DNA from: Pseudomonadota bacterium
Lineage (GTDB): Bacteria > Pseudomonadota > Alphaproteobacteria > Rhodobacterales > Rhodobacteraceae
Direction of reading: 5' to 3'
Length of the DNA: 43,159 bases
Assembly (NCBI GenBank): GCA_027592105.1
Contig: JAQCLA010000002.1
Coordinates: 1-43,159 of the forward strand
Below are positions 27,002 to 43,159 of the stretch, piece after piece (position 1 is the stretch's first letter; each line of letters opens with the position of its first letter). Both the position numbers and the translations under genes were made by a program. A model generated the notes under the pieces. It saw only the letters and a program-made list of their open reading frames with translations, was not told the origin of the DNA and made no database searches.

Positions 27002-27625
27002 TTAGGCGGTAGAGATCACCAGCCCATCATCGCTTGCGACGTAATTCAACGTCAGATCGAAGAGCGCGAGCGTGGCATGAAGGGCGGGAAACTGTGCCTC
27101 GCTGGCCTTCAGGGGGCGTGCTGCTGCGTTCATGCCGAAATGCAGCACAGACCATAAGGCTGGATCATGGGTGACGCGGGGTGCCTTGGCGTTCAGGCGC
27201 AGATGCCCGCCCGCCTCTTGCGTGATGGTCACATCGCCGCCCATGGGAAGGGCCGTTTCGGCGCAAAGCAGCATCAGATAGCCCATCTTGACCCGGTGGC
27301 GCGGCAAATCCTCGGCCACGGCCCAGCTGACATGCAGGCGCGCGCCCTGCCAAGGGCTTTGGGCTGTTGTCTTGGCCTCGCGCGCGGAAAGGATTTGGGT
27401 TGGGGCGGCTGCGCCAAAGGCGATGCGCATGAAACGCACCCGTGCCTGCGCATCGCGCACCGCGTCGCGGATCAGCGCCATTTCCGGCCCGCGCGCCGCC
27501 CCTGTCATCTCGATCAACTCCACCCCGTTGCCGATCGCGCCCAGCGGGTTTACGAGGTCATGACACAGCCGCGAGGCAATCAATTCGGCAAGGCTTTGAT
27601 GCCCTTGAGGCGTATGGTCATTCAT
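27002..27625 (-). CDS. chpT: histidine phosphotransferase ChpT-like (CckA-ChpT-CtrA phosphorelay)
   Basis: LAELIASRLCHDLVNPLGAIGNGVELIEMTG (H-box-like SRLCHDLVNPLGAIGNG), 207 aa, size and layout of ChpT. Confidence 0.88.
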   Translation of the reverse strand: MNDHTPQGHQSLAELIASRLCHDLVNPLGAIGNGVELIEMTGAARGPEMALIRDAVRDAQARVRFMRIAFGAAAPTQILSAREAKTTAQSPWQGARLHVSWAVAEDLPRHRVKMGYLMLLCAETALPMGGDVTITQEAGGHLRLNAKAPRVTHDPALWSVLHFGMNAAARPLKASEAQFPALHATLALFDLTLNYVASDDGLVISTA

Positions 27626-27640
27626 GAGGCGGACCTTTCC

Positions 27641-27826
27641 ATGCAGGACGATCTAAGCACGATCCTTGAGCCGGGCATGTTCGTGCGTGCGCCCGACACC
27701 CCGGATTGGGGGCTGGGGCAGGTGCAGTCGAATATCGGTGGAAAGATCACGGTCAATTTCGAGAACGAGGGCAAGCTGGTGCTGGATGCGCGCCATATCC
27801 GCCTGCAGATCGTATATCTCGACTGA
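27641..27826 (+). CDS. DUF3553-like small protein, 61 aa
   Basis: MQDDLSTILEPGMFVRAPDTPDWGLGQVQSNIGGKITVNFENEGKLVLDARHIRLQIVYLD; matches the recognisable DUF3553 pattern. Confidence 0.8.
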   Translation: MQDDLSTILEPGMFVRAPDTPDWGLGQVQSNIGGKITVNFENEGKLVLDARHIRLQIVYLD

Positions 27827-27874
27827 ACCATTCTATCGTCACCGGACCTTGCGCCCCAGGCTAAGCGCCACCGG

Positions 27875-27890
27875 TTAATACGAGTTTAAC
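27875..27890 (+). promoter_or_regulatory. candidate CtrA binding site
   Basis: TTAA-TACGAGT-TTAAC: perfect match to the TTAA-N7-TTAAC CtrA consensus. Confidence 0.55.
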
Positions 27891-27983
27891 GCACACCGCG
27901 ACAGATTTGCAGGGCTGTGTTTGGTTTGCAAGCGGGTCTGGGCCTGCTAAAGCCATCGCCACAGGGGTTACGCGCGTCATATC

Positions 27984-28757
27984 ATGCAGATCGATGATCG
28001 CCATTTCGAGCTTCGCTTGGCACAAGATCGCGCCGATCTGCATGCCGCACAGCGTATGCGCTATGATGTCTTCGTGGCCGAACTGGGCGCGGATGGGCCG
28101 ATGGTCGATCATGATGCCCGGCGCGAGATCGACCGCTTTGATGCGCATGTCGATCACCTGTTGCTGCATGACACCCGCAGGGCCAAGGGCGATCAGGTCA
28201 TCGGCGTCTATCGGCTTTTGACCGAGGATGGGGCAAAGGCGGCCGGACAATTTTATTCCGAGGATGAATATGATCTGACAGCCCTCAAGCAAAGTGGGCG
28301 GCGTTTGCTGGAGCTGGGGCGGTCGTGCCTGCATCGCGATTATCGCGGCGGCACGGCGATGATGCATCTTTGGGCGGGGCTTGCGGGCTATATCGCCGCG
28401 CGCGAGATCTCGGTGTTGTTCGGCGTGGCCAGTTTTCACGGATGCGATCCTGCACCCTTGGCCGGACCTTTGTCGCTGTTGCATCACCGGCATCTGGCGC
28501 CGCCGGAACTGCGCCCCGTGGCGCGCGATACGGGCTATCAGCGGATGGATTTGATCGCCGAGGCCGATCTAGACCGCCCGACGGCCATCCGCGCCGTGCC
28601 TGCCTTGATCAAGGCCTATCTGCGTTTGGGTGGCGTCGTGGGGCAGGGGGCCTATCTCGATCGTGCCTTCAACTGTCTGGATGTATGCCTTGTCATGGAT
28701 GTCACCCAGATCCCCGCGACGTCGCGCGCGATCTATCAACGGGGTGGCGGGCAATGA
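27984..28757 (+). CDS. olsB: L-ornithine N(alpha)-acyltransferase (GNAT family)
   Basis: RYDVFVAELGADGPMVDHDARREIDRFDAHVDHLLLHD...GRRLLELGRSCLHRDYRGGTAMMHLWAGLAGYI...LFGVASFHG; followed by olsA. Confidence 0.9.
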   Translation: MQIDDRHFELRLAQDRADLHAAQRMRYDVFVAELGADGPMVDHDARREIDRFDAHVDHLLLHDTRRAKGDQVIGVYRLLTEDGAKAAGQFYSEDEYDLTALKQSGRRLLELGRSCLHRDYRGGTAMMHLWAGLAGYIAAREISVLFGVASFHGCDPAPLAGPLSLLHHRHLAPPELRPVARDTGYQRMDLIAEADLDRPTAIRAVPALIKAYLRLGGVVGQGAYLDRAFNCLDVCLVMDVTQIPATSRAIYQRGGGQ

Positions 28758-29584
28758 GCCAGACTTGGCATGGGTTGGCCGAACCCGCACCGCGCCCGCT
28801 TGGTTGGGCCGATTGGCTGCGCATCGCGTTACGCGGCACGCCCTTGTTCATCCTATTGCTGTTTTGCTTTCCGCTTTTATTGGTGCTGCGCCTGCCCGAA
28901 CGGCTGATCTTTGGCCAAGCGCGCCCCGTGACGCCCTACATCACGCAGTTTGTTTGCGTCACGGCCTGTCACATCTTGGGGCTTGGCCGGGTGATGCATG
29001 GCAAGCCGATGATCGGGCCGGGGGCCTATGTGGCCAATCATGTCGGCTGGCTGGATATTTTCGTGCTGAATGCGGGCAAGCGGCTTTATTTCGTCGCCAA
29101 GTCCGAGGTGGCGGGCTGGCCCGGCATCGGCTGGCTTGCGCGTGGCACCGGTACGGTCTTTATCGCACGCGATCGTCGCCATGCCGCCGCACAGACGCGT
29201 TTGTTCGAGGATCGCCTGCGCGCGGGCCATCGGCTGTTGTTTTTTCCAGAAGGCACATCAAGCGACGGGCGGCGGGTCTTGCCGTTCAAAACCACGCTTT
29301 TCCAAGCTTTTCATAGTGAGCGGCTCAGCGCGATTTTGCAGATCCAACCCGTCACGCTGATCTATCATCCGCCTGTGGGCGAAGATCCGCGCTTTTATGG
29401 CTGGTGGGGAGATATGGCCCTGACGCCTGCGATCTTGTCCGTTCTGGCCGCACCCCGCCAAGGCAGGGTGGAGGTGGTTTACCACACCCCCCTGAAGGTC
29501 AGCGATTTTGCTGATCGCAAGGTATTGGCGTTGACCGCCGAGGCCGCCGTGCGCGCGGGCCTACCGCCTGCGATGCGCGATTAA
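28754..29584 (+). CDS. olsA: lyso-ornithine lipid acyltransferase (PlsC family)
   Basis: ATGA overlap with olsB; acyltransferase motifs YVANHVGWLDIF and FFPEGTSSDG. Confidence 0.9.
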   Translation: MSQTWHGLAEPAPRPLGWADWLRIALRGTPLFILLLFCFPLLLVLRLPERLIFGQARPVTPYITQFVCVTACHILGLGRVMHGKPMIGPGAYVANHVGWLDIFVLNAGKRLYFVAKSEVAGWPGIGWLARGTGTVFIARDRRHAAAQTRLFEDRLRAGHRLLFFPEGTSSDGRRVLPFKTTLFQAFHSERLSAILQIQPVTLIYHPPVGEDPRFYGWWGDMALTPAILSVLAAPRQGRVEVVYHTPLKVSDFADRKVLALTAEAAVRAGLPPAMRD

Positions 29585-38954: not shown

Positions 38955-39641
38955 CTATCCCAGTGCGTAACCCGCACCGCGCACGGTTCTGATCGGGTCG
39001 CCATGTGCCCCTGCCTTGAGCGCTTTGCGCAGACGGCCCACATGCACATCGACCGTGCGGCTATCGACATAGATATCGCGGCCCCAGACGCGGTCGAGCA
39101 ATTGCTCACGGCTCCACACCCGGCCTGGGCGCTCCATGAATGCGGTCAAAAGCCGAAACTCGGTCGGCCCAAGGCGCAGCTGCTCACCTTGGCGATAGAC
39201 GCGATGCTCGGCCAGATCGATCATGATGTCATCATAGTCGAGCCGCTCACCCACTGTTGCGGGACGCACGCGGCGCAGCTGGGTGCGCAGCCGTGCCAAT
39301 AGCTCTGCCACGGAATATGGCTTGGTGATATAATCATCCGCACCGGTCTCAAGGCCCCGGATCTTGTCGGTCTCTTCCGAGCGCGCAGAAAGCATGATCA
39401 CGGGAATTCGCGCCGTATCGACACCCATCTTGAGTTGGCGGCACACCTCGATCCCCGAGACATGCGGCAACATCCAATCGAGCACGATCACATCGGGCGG
39501 TGTTTCACGCACCAAGACCAAGGCTTCATCGCCGGCTTCGGCGGTGATGACCTGATAGCCTTCGGCCTTGATGTTATAGGCCAGAACCTCGCGCTGTGCG
39601 GGTTCATCCTCGACCACAAGTACCAGCGGTTCCCCGGCCAT
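38955..39641 (-). CDS. phoB: phosphate regulon response regulator PhoB
   Basis: Receiver (VLDWMLPHVSGIEVCRQLK, VIMLSARSEETDKIRGLETGADDYITKPYSVAELLARL) plus OmpR-type wHTH; next to phoU-pst. Confidence 0.95.
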   Translation of the reverse strand: MAGEPLVLVVEDEPAQREVLAYNIKAEGYQVITAEAGDEALVLVRETPPDVIVLDWMLPHVSGIEVCRQLKMGVDTARIPVIMLSARSEETDKIRGLETGADDYITKPYSVAELLARLRTQLRRVRPATVGERLDYDDIMIDLAEHRVYRQGEQLRLGPTEFRLLTAFMERPGRVWSREQLLDRVWGRDIYVDSRTVDVHVGRLRKALKAGAHGDPIRTVRGAGYALG

Positions 39642-39653
39642 GTCCCCTGCCCC

Positions 39654-40370
39654 TTACACACCGCGCCCGGCGTCGAGCGCGGTGGCGTCTTGCTTGGGCC
39701 GGTCATCGTCGGGCATGTCGCCGGTCACCAGATAGATCACCTGTTCGGCGATCGAGGTGACATGGTCGCCCATCCGCTCGATATTCTTGGCCATAAAATG
39801 CAAATGCATGCAGGTGGTGATGTTGCGCGGATCTTCCATCATGAAGGTCAGATATTCGCGAAACAGCGCCGAATACATCTGGTCGACATCACGGTCACGC
39901 GCGCGCACATCCGCCGCCAAAGCAACATCGCGCTGGATATAGGCGTCCAGCACATCCTTGAGCATCAATTCGACCTGGCGCGCCATCCGGCGCAGCGAGG
40001 CGGCCGTGCCATTGACCGGCGGGCTGTCGATGATGGTTTCGGTGCGCTTGGCGATGTTCTTGGCGTAATCGCCAATCCGCTCAAGATTGGTCGACACCCG
40101 GAACACCGTCAGAACCGTGCGCAAATCCGTGGCGATGGGTTGACGCTGCGCGATAATGCGGGCCGCTTCTTCGTTGACCTGTTCTTCCAGCGCGTCGATG
40201 GCGCGGTCGCCATCACGCACGGTGCGCGCCTGTTCGATGTCGCGGGTTTCAAGCGCCTCGGTGGCGCGCGCGATGGCTTCTTCGACCAAGCCGCCCATGC
40301 GCATGATTTGCGCTTGGATGCCTTCGAGGTCGCGGTCGAAGCCCGATACGATATGCTCTGATGATGGCAT
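39654..40370 (-). CDS. phoU: phosphate signalling protein PhoU
   Basis: HIVSGFDRDLEGIQAQIMRMGGLVEEAIARATEALETRD...LERIGDYAKNIAKRT...MHLHFMAKNIERMGDHVTSIAEQVIYLVTG. Confidence 0.96.
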   Translation of the reverse strand: MPSSEHIVSGFDRDLEGIQAQIMRMGGLVEEAIARATEALETRDIEQARTVRDGDRAIDALEEQVNEEAARIIAQRQPIATDLRTVLTVFRVSTNLERIGDYAKNIAKRTETIIDSPPVNGTAASLRRMARQVELMLKDVLDAYIQRDVALAADVRARDRDVDQMYSALFREYLTFMMEDPRNITTCMHLHFMAKNIERMGDHVTSIAEQVIYLVTGDMPDDDRPKQDATALDAGRGV

Positions 40371-40401
40371 GGTTATCCCCCCTGCCCTATACGAAAAAGC
40401 C

Positions 40402-41199
40402 TCAACCGATCCGGCCTGTGATGTAGCTTTCGGTGCGTGGATCGTCAGGATTGGTGAAAATCTTCGATGTATTGCCGTATTCGACCAGATTACCGAGGTG
40501 GAAGAAGGCGGTTTGCTGGCTGACGCGTGCGGCCTGTTGCATCGAGTGGGTCACGATCACGACCGAGAATTTGGCGCGCAGCTCGTCGATCAATTCCTCG
40601 ACCTGCGCCGTGGCGATGGGGTCGAGCGCGGAACAAGGTTCGTCCATCAAGAGAACCTCGGGGCCGGTGGCGATGGCGCGCGCGATGCAAAGGCGCTGCT
40701 GCTGACCACCCGAGAGGCCAGTGCCCGATTCTTTGAGACGATCCTTTACCTCATTCCATAGCGCGGCCTTGCGCAGGCTTTCCTCGACGATTGTGTCGAG
40801 ATCGGCCTTGGTGCGGGCCAAGCCGTGGATTTTGGGCCCATAGGCGACATTGTCATAGATCGATTTGGGGAAAGGGTTGGGCTTTTGAAACACCATCCCC
40901 ACCTTGGCACGCAGCTGCACGGGGTCAACGCGGCTGTCATAGATATCTTCGCCATCGATACGGATATCACCCTCGACCCGCGCGATGGAGACCGTATCGT
41001 TCATCCGGTTCAAACAGCGCAGAAAGGTCGACTTGCCACAGCCCGAGGGGCCGATGAAGGCCGTGACCGTATTGGTCAGGATATCGACATCGACGTCCTT
41101 GAGCGCATGTTTCTCGCCATAGTACACCTGCACGCCGCGGGCGGTGATCTTGATGTCCTGTGCGTCCACAAGTCTCTCCGTCATGAGTTGGTCGTCCAT
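40402..41199 (-). CDS. pstB: phosphate ABC transporter ATP-binding protein
   Basis: [47 protein letters not shown]...[43 protein letters not shown]. Confidence 0.97.
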
Positions 41200-41209
41200 G
41201 TTCCGTTCC

Positions 41210-42571
41210 TTACCAGCGCCGCTCGAAGCGACGACGCAGCACGATGGCCAAGATGTTCATGATCAGCAAAAAGGCCAACAATACGATAATTGCCCCTGCG
41301 GACCGCTCGATAAAGGCCGGGTCGGCCCGGGAAGCCCAAGAATAGACCTGCACCGGCAATGCCGTCGCCGGGTCGAAGATACCGCCGTCAAACGGCCCCG
41401 CCGGGTAGTTTGCCACAAAGGCTACCATGCCGATCAGCAGCAAGGGTGCCGTTTCACCCAAAGCCGATGCCAACCCCAAGATCGTGCCGGTCAAGATCCC
41501 CGGTGCCGCCAAGGGCAGCACATGGTGAAACACCACCTGCATCTTCGAGGCCCCAACCCCCATCGCCGCGTCGCGGATCGAGGGCGGGACGGCGCGAATG
41601 GCCGCGCGTGTCGCGATGATGATCGTGGGCAGTGTCATCAAGGTCAGCACCAGCGCCCCCACCAAAGGCGAGGATTGCGGGAACTGCGCAAAATTGATGA
41701 AGATCGCGAGCCCCAAGATGCCATAAACGATCGACGGCACCGCGGCGAGGTTCGAGATATTCACCTCGATCAAATCGGTCCAGCGGTTCTTGGGCGCGAA
41801 TTCCTCCAGATAGATCGAGGCCGACACGCCCAGCGGCAGCACCATCAAGGCCACCAAAAGCATCATATAGGCCGAGCCGATCATCGCCACGCCCAGACCC
41901 GAGGCTTCGGGCCGCTGGTCGGATGCATCAGGATTGGTCAGAAAGCCCCAGTTGAACTTGAGCGACAAAAGCCCGTCATCGACCATTCGATCGGCCAGAT
42001 CGAGCTGGGCCGGAGAGATATTGACGTCAAGCTCGGCGATTGCACGCGTCACGCGCCCCTTGAGATAGCCGTCCACGCGCCCTGTGGCATATCCCTCGAA
42101 GGGGATGGTTTGGCCCAAAAGCGACGGATCTTCGATCACCATACGGCGCAGGCGCGCGGGCGTGTCCCGCGAGATGAAGGCCGCGATTTCCCGATCGCTG
42201 ACCCCTTCGGTCGAAATGCCCCGTTCGGTGAGATAGGCGATCAGATTGTCGTTCAACAGACCCGTGTAGCCGATGGTGGTCACACGCATCATTTCATCGC
42301 GCTGGCGGTTCCCGTTCGGGTCAAGCCGCTCGGCATCCAAGGTCACCGGGAAGGAAAAGGTCGCCTGCCGAAAGGCCGAGACGCCATCCGAAAAGATCGT
42401 CCAAAGCATGATGAACAACACCGACAGGCTGACGCAGATCGCGACGACGCCATAATATTTGAACCGGGTTTCGGCAGCGTTGCGCTTTTTCATCCGTTCG
42501 GTCTGTTGCAACAGCGATGTTGCGGGCTTGGCCGGGCTTTGCGGTGTCGCCGCTGCGGTTGCGTCAGTCAT
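41210..42571 (-). CDS. pstA: phosphate ABC transporter permease PstA (with N-terminal DUF3333-like region)
   Basis: PstA permease core ([47 protein letters not shown]...[51 protein letters not shown]); start ATG at 42571. Confidence 0.94.
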
Positions 42572-43159
42572 TCGTACTGCTCCCGGTATCTGCGCACGAC
42601 CCACAACGCAAAGATGTTCAGCCCCAAGGTGATCACGAACAGCGTGATCCCCAGCGCAAAGGCCACCAGCGTTTCGGCCGAGTTAAATTCCAAATCACCC
42701 GTCAACTGGCTGACGATTTTCACGGTGATCGTGGTCATTGCCTCGAACGGGTTCAGGTCGAGCTTGGCCGAGGCCCCTGCCCCCATGGTCACGATCATCG
42801 TCTCACCGATCGCACGGCTGGCGGCCAACAAGATTGCGCCAACGATACCCGGCAATGCGGCGGGCAAGATCACCTGACGCACAGTTTCCGACTTCGTGGC
42901 ACCCAAGCCATAAGAGCCATCGCGCAGCGATTGCGGCACGGCATTCATGATGTCGTCGGTCAGTGACGAAATAAACGGAACCTGAAGAATGCCAATCACG
43001 ATACCCGCCGTCATCACCGATGACCCGGAGGTGCCAAGCCCGGTCGGTTCGGCGATATATTCACGCAAGAAGGGGCCGACTGTTACCAGCGCAAAAAGCC
43101 CGAAAACCACCGTGGGGATGCCTGCGATCACCTCGATCAGCGGCTTGACGACAGAACGC
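42568..43159 (-). CDS. pstC: phosphate ABC transporter permease PstC (5' end outside window)
   Basis: EVIAGIPTVVFGLFALVTVGPFLREYI...LTDDIMNAVPQSLRDGSYGLGATKSETVRQVILPAALPGIVGAILLAASRAIGETMIVTM; overlaps pstA by 4 nt. Confidence 0.94.
   Translation of the reverse strand, partial: RSVVKPLIEVIAGIPTVVFGLFALVTVGPFLREYIAEPTGLGTSGSSVMTAGIVIGILQVPFISSLTDDIMNAVPQSLRDGSYGLGATKSETVRQVILPAALPGIVGAILLAASRAIGETMIVTMGAGASAKLDLNPFEAMTTITVKIVSQLTGDLEFNSAETLVAFALGITLFVITLGLNIFALWVVRRYREQYE

Follow-up and report, generated by a model that had tools for sequence, protein, structure and literature searches.

Which gene is served by a CtrA-type box that lies between a DUF3553 gene and the ornithine-lipid genes olsBA? 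A preliminary description of this DNA (the window, i.e. the whole stretch of 43,159 nucleotides analysed, from a Roseicyclus-like Rhodobacterales assembly that is 78% complete) had proposed that the box places olsBA and thereby ornithine-lipid synthesis under the control of CtrA. According to our analysis this target looks wrong, or is at best secondary, and the box probably forms the upstream half of a chpT promoter on the minus strand beyond DUF3553. The following features are referred to below; gene identities were checked by HMM.

27002 to 27625, minus strand: chpT, encoding the histidine phosphotransferase of the CckA-ChpT-CtrA relay, the proposed target (PF10090, E=4e-23)
27641 to 27826, plus strand: DUF3553 gene, divergent from chpT (PF12073, E=3e-26; present in 80 of 80 related loci)
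27849 to 27852, minus strand: predicted region of transcription start towards chpT, placed by the box-to-start distance of 23–24 nt (PMC6180460)
27858 to 27863, minus strand: −10-like element TAGCCT, its A 12 nt past the box end, the distance seen in R. sphaeroides fla2 promoters
27874 to 27890, no strand (palindromic): CtrA-type full site GTTAA-TACGAGT-TTAAC, from motif and conservation in relatives
27926 to 27950, plus strand: olsB promoter-like pair TTGC-N17-CTAA, found in 16 of 24 loci
27984 to 28757, plus strand: olsB, encoding L-ornithine N(alpha)-acyltransferase (NF052554, E=6e-120, above cut-off)
28754 to 29584, plus strand: olsA, encoding lyso-ornithine lipid O-acyltransferase, with an ATGA overlap with olsB (NF052552, E=8e-124, above cut-off)

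The chpT product also matched the NCBIfam ChpT models (E=6e-29), yet stayed under their cut-offs.

Position and conservation of the box

The sequence TTAATACGAGTTTAAC is located at 27875-27890 on the plus strand, exactly where the preliminary description had placed a perfect CtrA-type box. Together with the preceding G it forms a palindromic 17-mer (27874-27890), whose two halves are perfect inverted repeats, so that the box reads equally well on the minus strand (27874-27889). It lies in the noncoding spacer between DUF3553 and olsB and is separated by 93 nt from the ATG of olsB (27984), close to the earlier estimate of about 95 nt. The box had also been described as lying between chpT/DUF3553 and olsBA; this holds for DUF3553, but chpT is not the immediate neighbour, its start being 249 nt away with DUF3553 intervening.

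Within the whole window TTAA-N7-TTAA occurs a single time, namely as the box. The pattern was present in 5 of 100 dinucleotide shuffles of the window, and the mean for TTAA-N7-TTAAC in such shuffles was 0.02. In 13 genomes of the same genus TTAA-N7-TTAAC gave 167 strand matches versus 73 for the reversed control. Since this enrichment is only about 2.3-fold, a lone match could easily be due to chance and conservation had to decide. At the level of sequence the pattern by itself is weak evidence, and it is the conservation that makes the box convincing.

Starting from olsB relatives, 80 loci were taken from a public genome collection (81 with the window), and the order chpT (minus), DUF3553 (plus), olsB (plus) is kept in all 80. 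Conservation upstream of olsB in relatives, named as a check in the preliminary description, is indeed found: GTTAA-N7-TTAAC is exact in the DUF3553-olsB spacer of 13 of the 81 loci (window included) and has one mismatch in 36 further loci, so that 49 of 81 carry it with at most one mismatch. Other half-site spacings (3-6 and 8-12) reach only 0-4 of the 81 loci each at the same stringency. Around the window, the box is set back from DUF3553 in 21 of the 22 rows that make up a well-supported OlsB clade, and this set-back-box label requires 5 changes on the tree versus 20.8 with shuffled labels. Of 30 genera of the family that were drawn separately, 12 had a chpT-olsB box with no more than one mismatch; in other Rhodobacteraceae the box is degenerate, located at the DUF3553 stop codon, or absent.

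The genome of the window encodes a protein recognised by its sequence, which we take to be the CtrA orthologue (G000:C134, locus L149). Furthermore, a box upstream of cckA, a known CtrA target, is present in this genome (G000) and in its relatives. Because motif, conservation, CtrA orthologue and a promoter layout shared with cckA all agree, the box is well supported as a real, conserved CtrA-type site, to which CtrA would bind.

Promoter layout on the two sides of the box

In CtrA-activated promoters of R. sphaeroides the mapped starts follow the site by 23–24 nt and position −11 is invariably A; mutating either the CtrA site or A(−11) lowers promoter activity (PMC6180460). It follows from these two distances that the A sits 12–13 nt after the site, with which the fliF2p primer sequence agrees. 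We scored this position in the 21 loci in which the noncoding DNA next to the box is long enough. Loci with the box at the DUF3553 stop codon were set aside from this count, because the stretch is coding there; in distant relatives, where the box has this location, the −10 test is uninformative. On the minus side, facing chpT, 21/21 loci, including the window, have an A 12–13 nt past the box and 17/21 have TA at 12/13, whereas on the plus side, facing olsB, the same loci have an A in 4/21 and TA in 0/21. Other two-base offsets on the minus side reach at most 14/21, windows overlapping 12/13 excepted. Binomial P values for the −10 signal assume independence and are too small for related sequences; as the set-back-box label needs only about 5 tree changes, naive P values overstate the signal. 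Nevertheless, since no other minus-side window exceeds 14/21, the −10 signal stands out from shared ancestry.

The minus-strand sequence of the window at this place is GTTAAACTCGTATTAAC-CGGTGGCGCT-TAGCCT. The start codons of chpT and DUF3553 are separated by a gap of 15 nt, which leaves only the inside of DUF3553 or the DNA beyond it as a place for the chpT promoter. Differences in DUF3553 by codon position numbered 165/133/385, and judged by sequence DUF3553 is a true coding sequence. A minus-strand ORF antisense to DUF3553 (27622-27831) was rejected as a gene, as the codon-position pattern fits DUF3553. Asn39 of DUF3553 (window 27755-27757) is encoded by AAT in 18/20 genomes, Asn31 in 9/20. 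The predicted leader is antisense to DUF3553; no terminator-like site was found between box and chpT, and the leader has no Rfam match and an ordinary folding energy (z −0.79), and on these grounds a structured leader or riboswitch was rejected. The distances from the box to chpT and to olsB had standard deviations of 22 and 25 nt and did not discriminate between the two genes.

On the olsB side the TTGC/CTAA pair, present in 16/24 loci, compares with a shuffle mean of 0.5 and a maximum of 3, and its spacer is 17 in 13 of the 16 loci. The pair is found 17–50 nt downstream of the box at a varying distance. Given this conserved pair, olsB seems to have a promoter of its own with the box at no fixed distance, and it is most likely that olsBA is transcribed from this downstream promoter. 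The olsB start is accordingly expected near 27957 and not, as had been predicted, near 27920. A scan with the sigma-70 consensus gave one weak plus-strand match (27956-27985), which overlaps the olsB start codon and was not used. No match to the Pho box CTGTCAT-N4-CTGTCAT was detected near olsB within 3 mismatches. The pho regulon locus noted earlier about 10 kb away does exist; phoB, phoU, pstB and pstA are located on the minus strand at 38955-42604 of the window.

Upstream of cckA, the box was seen in the genome of the window and in four genomes of the same genus, with TA at 12–13 in 5/5. It is present in 29/30 genera of the family, 27 of the 29 having an A at 12–14; in cckA promoters from the far family this A is kept but TA is mostly missing. 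The cckA box thus resembles the box described here in belonging to a relay gene and in having a similar site and −10 layout. Differences are found in position (60–105 nt upstream of cckA for the start of the box versus 249 nt from chpT) and in distribution (29/30 genera versus 12/30 for the chpT-olsB box with at most one mismatch).

Possible regulation of chpT and alternative readings

According to the mechanism that we favour, phosphorylated CtrA would act as an activator rather than a repressor: it would occupy the −35 region by binding to 27874-27890 and would bring RNA polymerase to the −10 element at 27858-27863, and transcription would start near 27850, cross DUF3553 in antisense and enter chpT. 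CtrA would in this way feed back on how much of its own phosphotransferase is supplied, next to the box that the family has at cckA. A close parallel is provided by the fla2 promoters (fliF2p/fliL2p) of Rhodobacter (Cereibacter) sphaeroides, which likewise combine TTAA-N7-TTAA near −35, A(−11) at 12–13 nt and a palindrome between divergent units (PMC6180460). Unlike here, these promoters serve flagellar targets through leaders of 12–33 nt, while chpT would be reached through a leader of about 225 nt; such a leader across another gene is unusual and counts against a chpT promoter at this place.

Since the site is palindromic, it could also act in both directions and control chpT on the minus and olsBA on the plus strand, as is documented in R. 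sphaeroides, where the divergent promoters of fliF2 and fliL2 share a single site (PMC6180460). The conserved olsB promoter-like pair downstream of the box and an A at box+13 on the plus strand of the window would fit such an arrangement. However, most relatives do not have this plus-side A (4/21 versus 21/21 on the minus side), the olsB promoter lies at widely varying distances, and the layout is conserved on one side only, which differs from the fla2 site. No paper on control of olsB or ornithine lipids by CtrA was found in the literature searched. We regard the bidirectional arrangement as possible but unlikely. The more specific proposal that one palindromic site sets both chpT, through its antisense-spanning leader, and olsBA, and that in the Roseicyclus clade membrane composition is thereby coupled to CtrA feedback, is somewhat more doubtful again.

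Alternatively, the box might drive an antisense RNA against DUF3553, with chpT being transcribed from a promoter inside DUF3553. The transcript would indeed cross all of DUF3553 in antisense, and an element concealed on the minus strand may underlie the preference for AAT at Asn39. As there is no terminator-like site before chpT, the RNA would be expected to continue into this gene, and neither the folding of the leader nor the Rfam search speaks for a functional RNA; we consider it improbable. It is very improbable that a regulator other than CtrA binds the repeat, or that the repeat is a chance relic: the half-site spacing of FNR sites differs from 7, the spacing of 7 is conserved in the box, and the layout matches that of the cckA promoters. 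In its favour, an FnrL site has been predicted at chpT of D. shibae, and a half site can be common to CtrA and Dnr sites (PMC7232146). The least probable reading is the original one, in which the box mainly controls olsBA: the spacer lies directly upstream of olsB, likewise in related loci, but the olsB side has no conserved −10 at activation distance, olsB has a separate promoter, and the conserved layout is on the opposite strand. Direct control of olsBA by CtrA is therefore possible but unsupported.

Control of chpT by CtrA would be new with respect to Dinoroseobacter and Ruegeria, where previous work placed chpT, unlike ctrA and cckA, outside the CtrA feedback loop (PMC7232146, PMC3692519). 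For Dinoroseobacter shibae CtrA sites were reported at ctrA, cckA, divL and clpP, and chpT expression is independent of CtrA (PMC4046655, PMC7232146). In C. sphaeroides XrpA represses chpT, and according to a 2025 paper chpT had not been reported as a member of the CtrA regulon (PMC11999139). Ruegeria KLH11 resembles the situation proposed here in that CtrA feeds back on its own relay by ctrA autoregulation, and differs in that chpT was not found to be preceded by a CtrA site (PMC3692519). The cckA site of KLH11 did not respond to CtrA (PMC3692519), which illustrates that a site need not act. A chromosomal chpT fusion in KLH11 showed a 2-fold drop in quorum-sensing mutants, and the signal molecule had no effect on a plasmid fusion of the stretch immediately before chpT (PMC3692519); as we read these data, a regulated promoter farther upstream could explain the difference. 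A promoter beyond DUF3553 would escape searches that cover only the short gap before chpT. If this promoter is real, chpT is inside the CtrA loop in the clade of the window.

CtrA-like boxes at other genes

A CtrA-like box is also located upstream of a PAS sensor kinase gene (L002, L162, L169), which we assume to be a possible relative of divL; a RegB-like kinase gene adjoins it in L002. Two contigs each have an rpoN-like gene with GTTAAC-type palindromic boxes located 91 nt in front of it (G000:C152:29981-29997 and G000:C285:430-446; L005, L008), as also seen in L167. These boxes are without an A at 12/13; sigma-54 may be linked to CtrA here, or the assembly may contain two strains. Finally, genomes of the same genus carry palindromic boxes between carA and a divergent gene (L157, L164), two of which overlap in L157.
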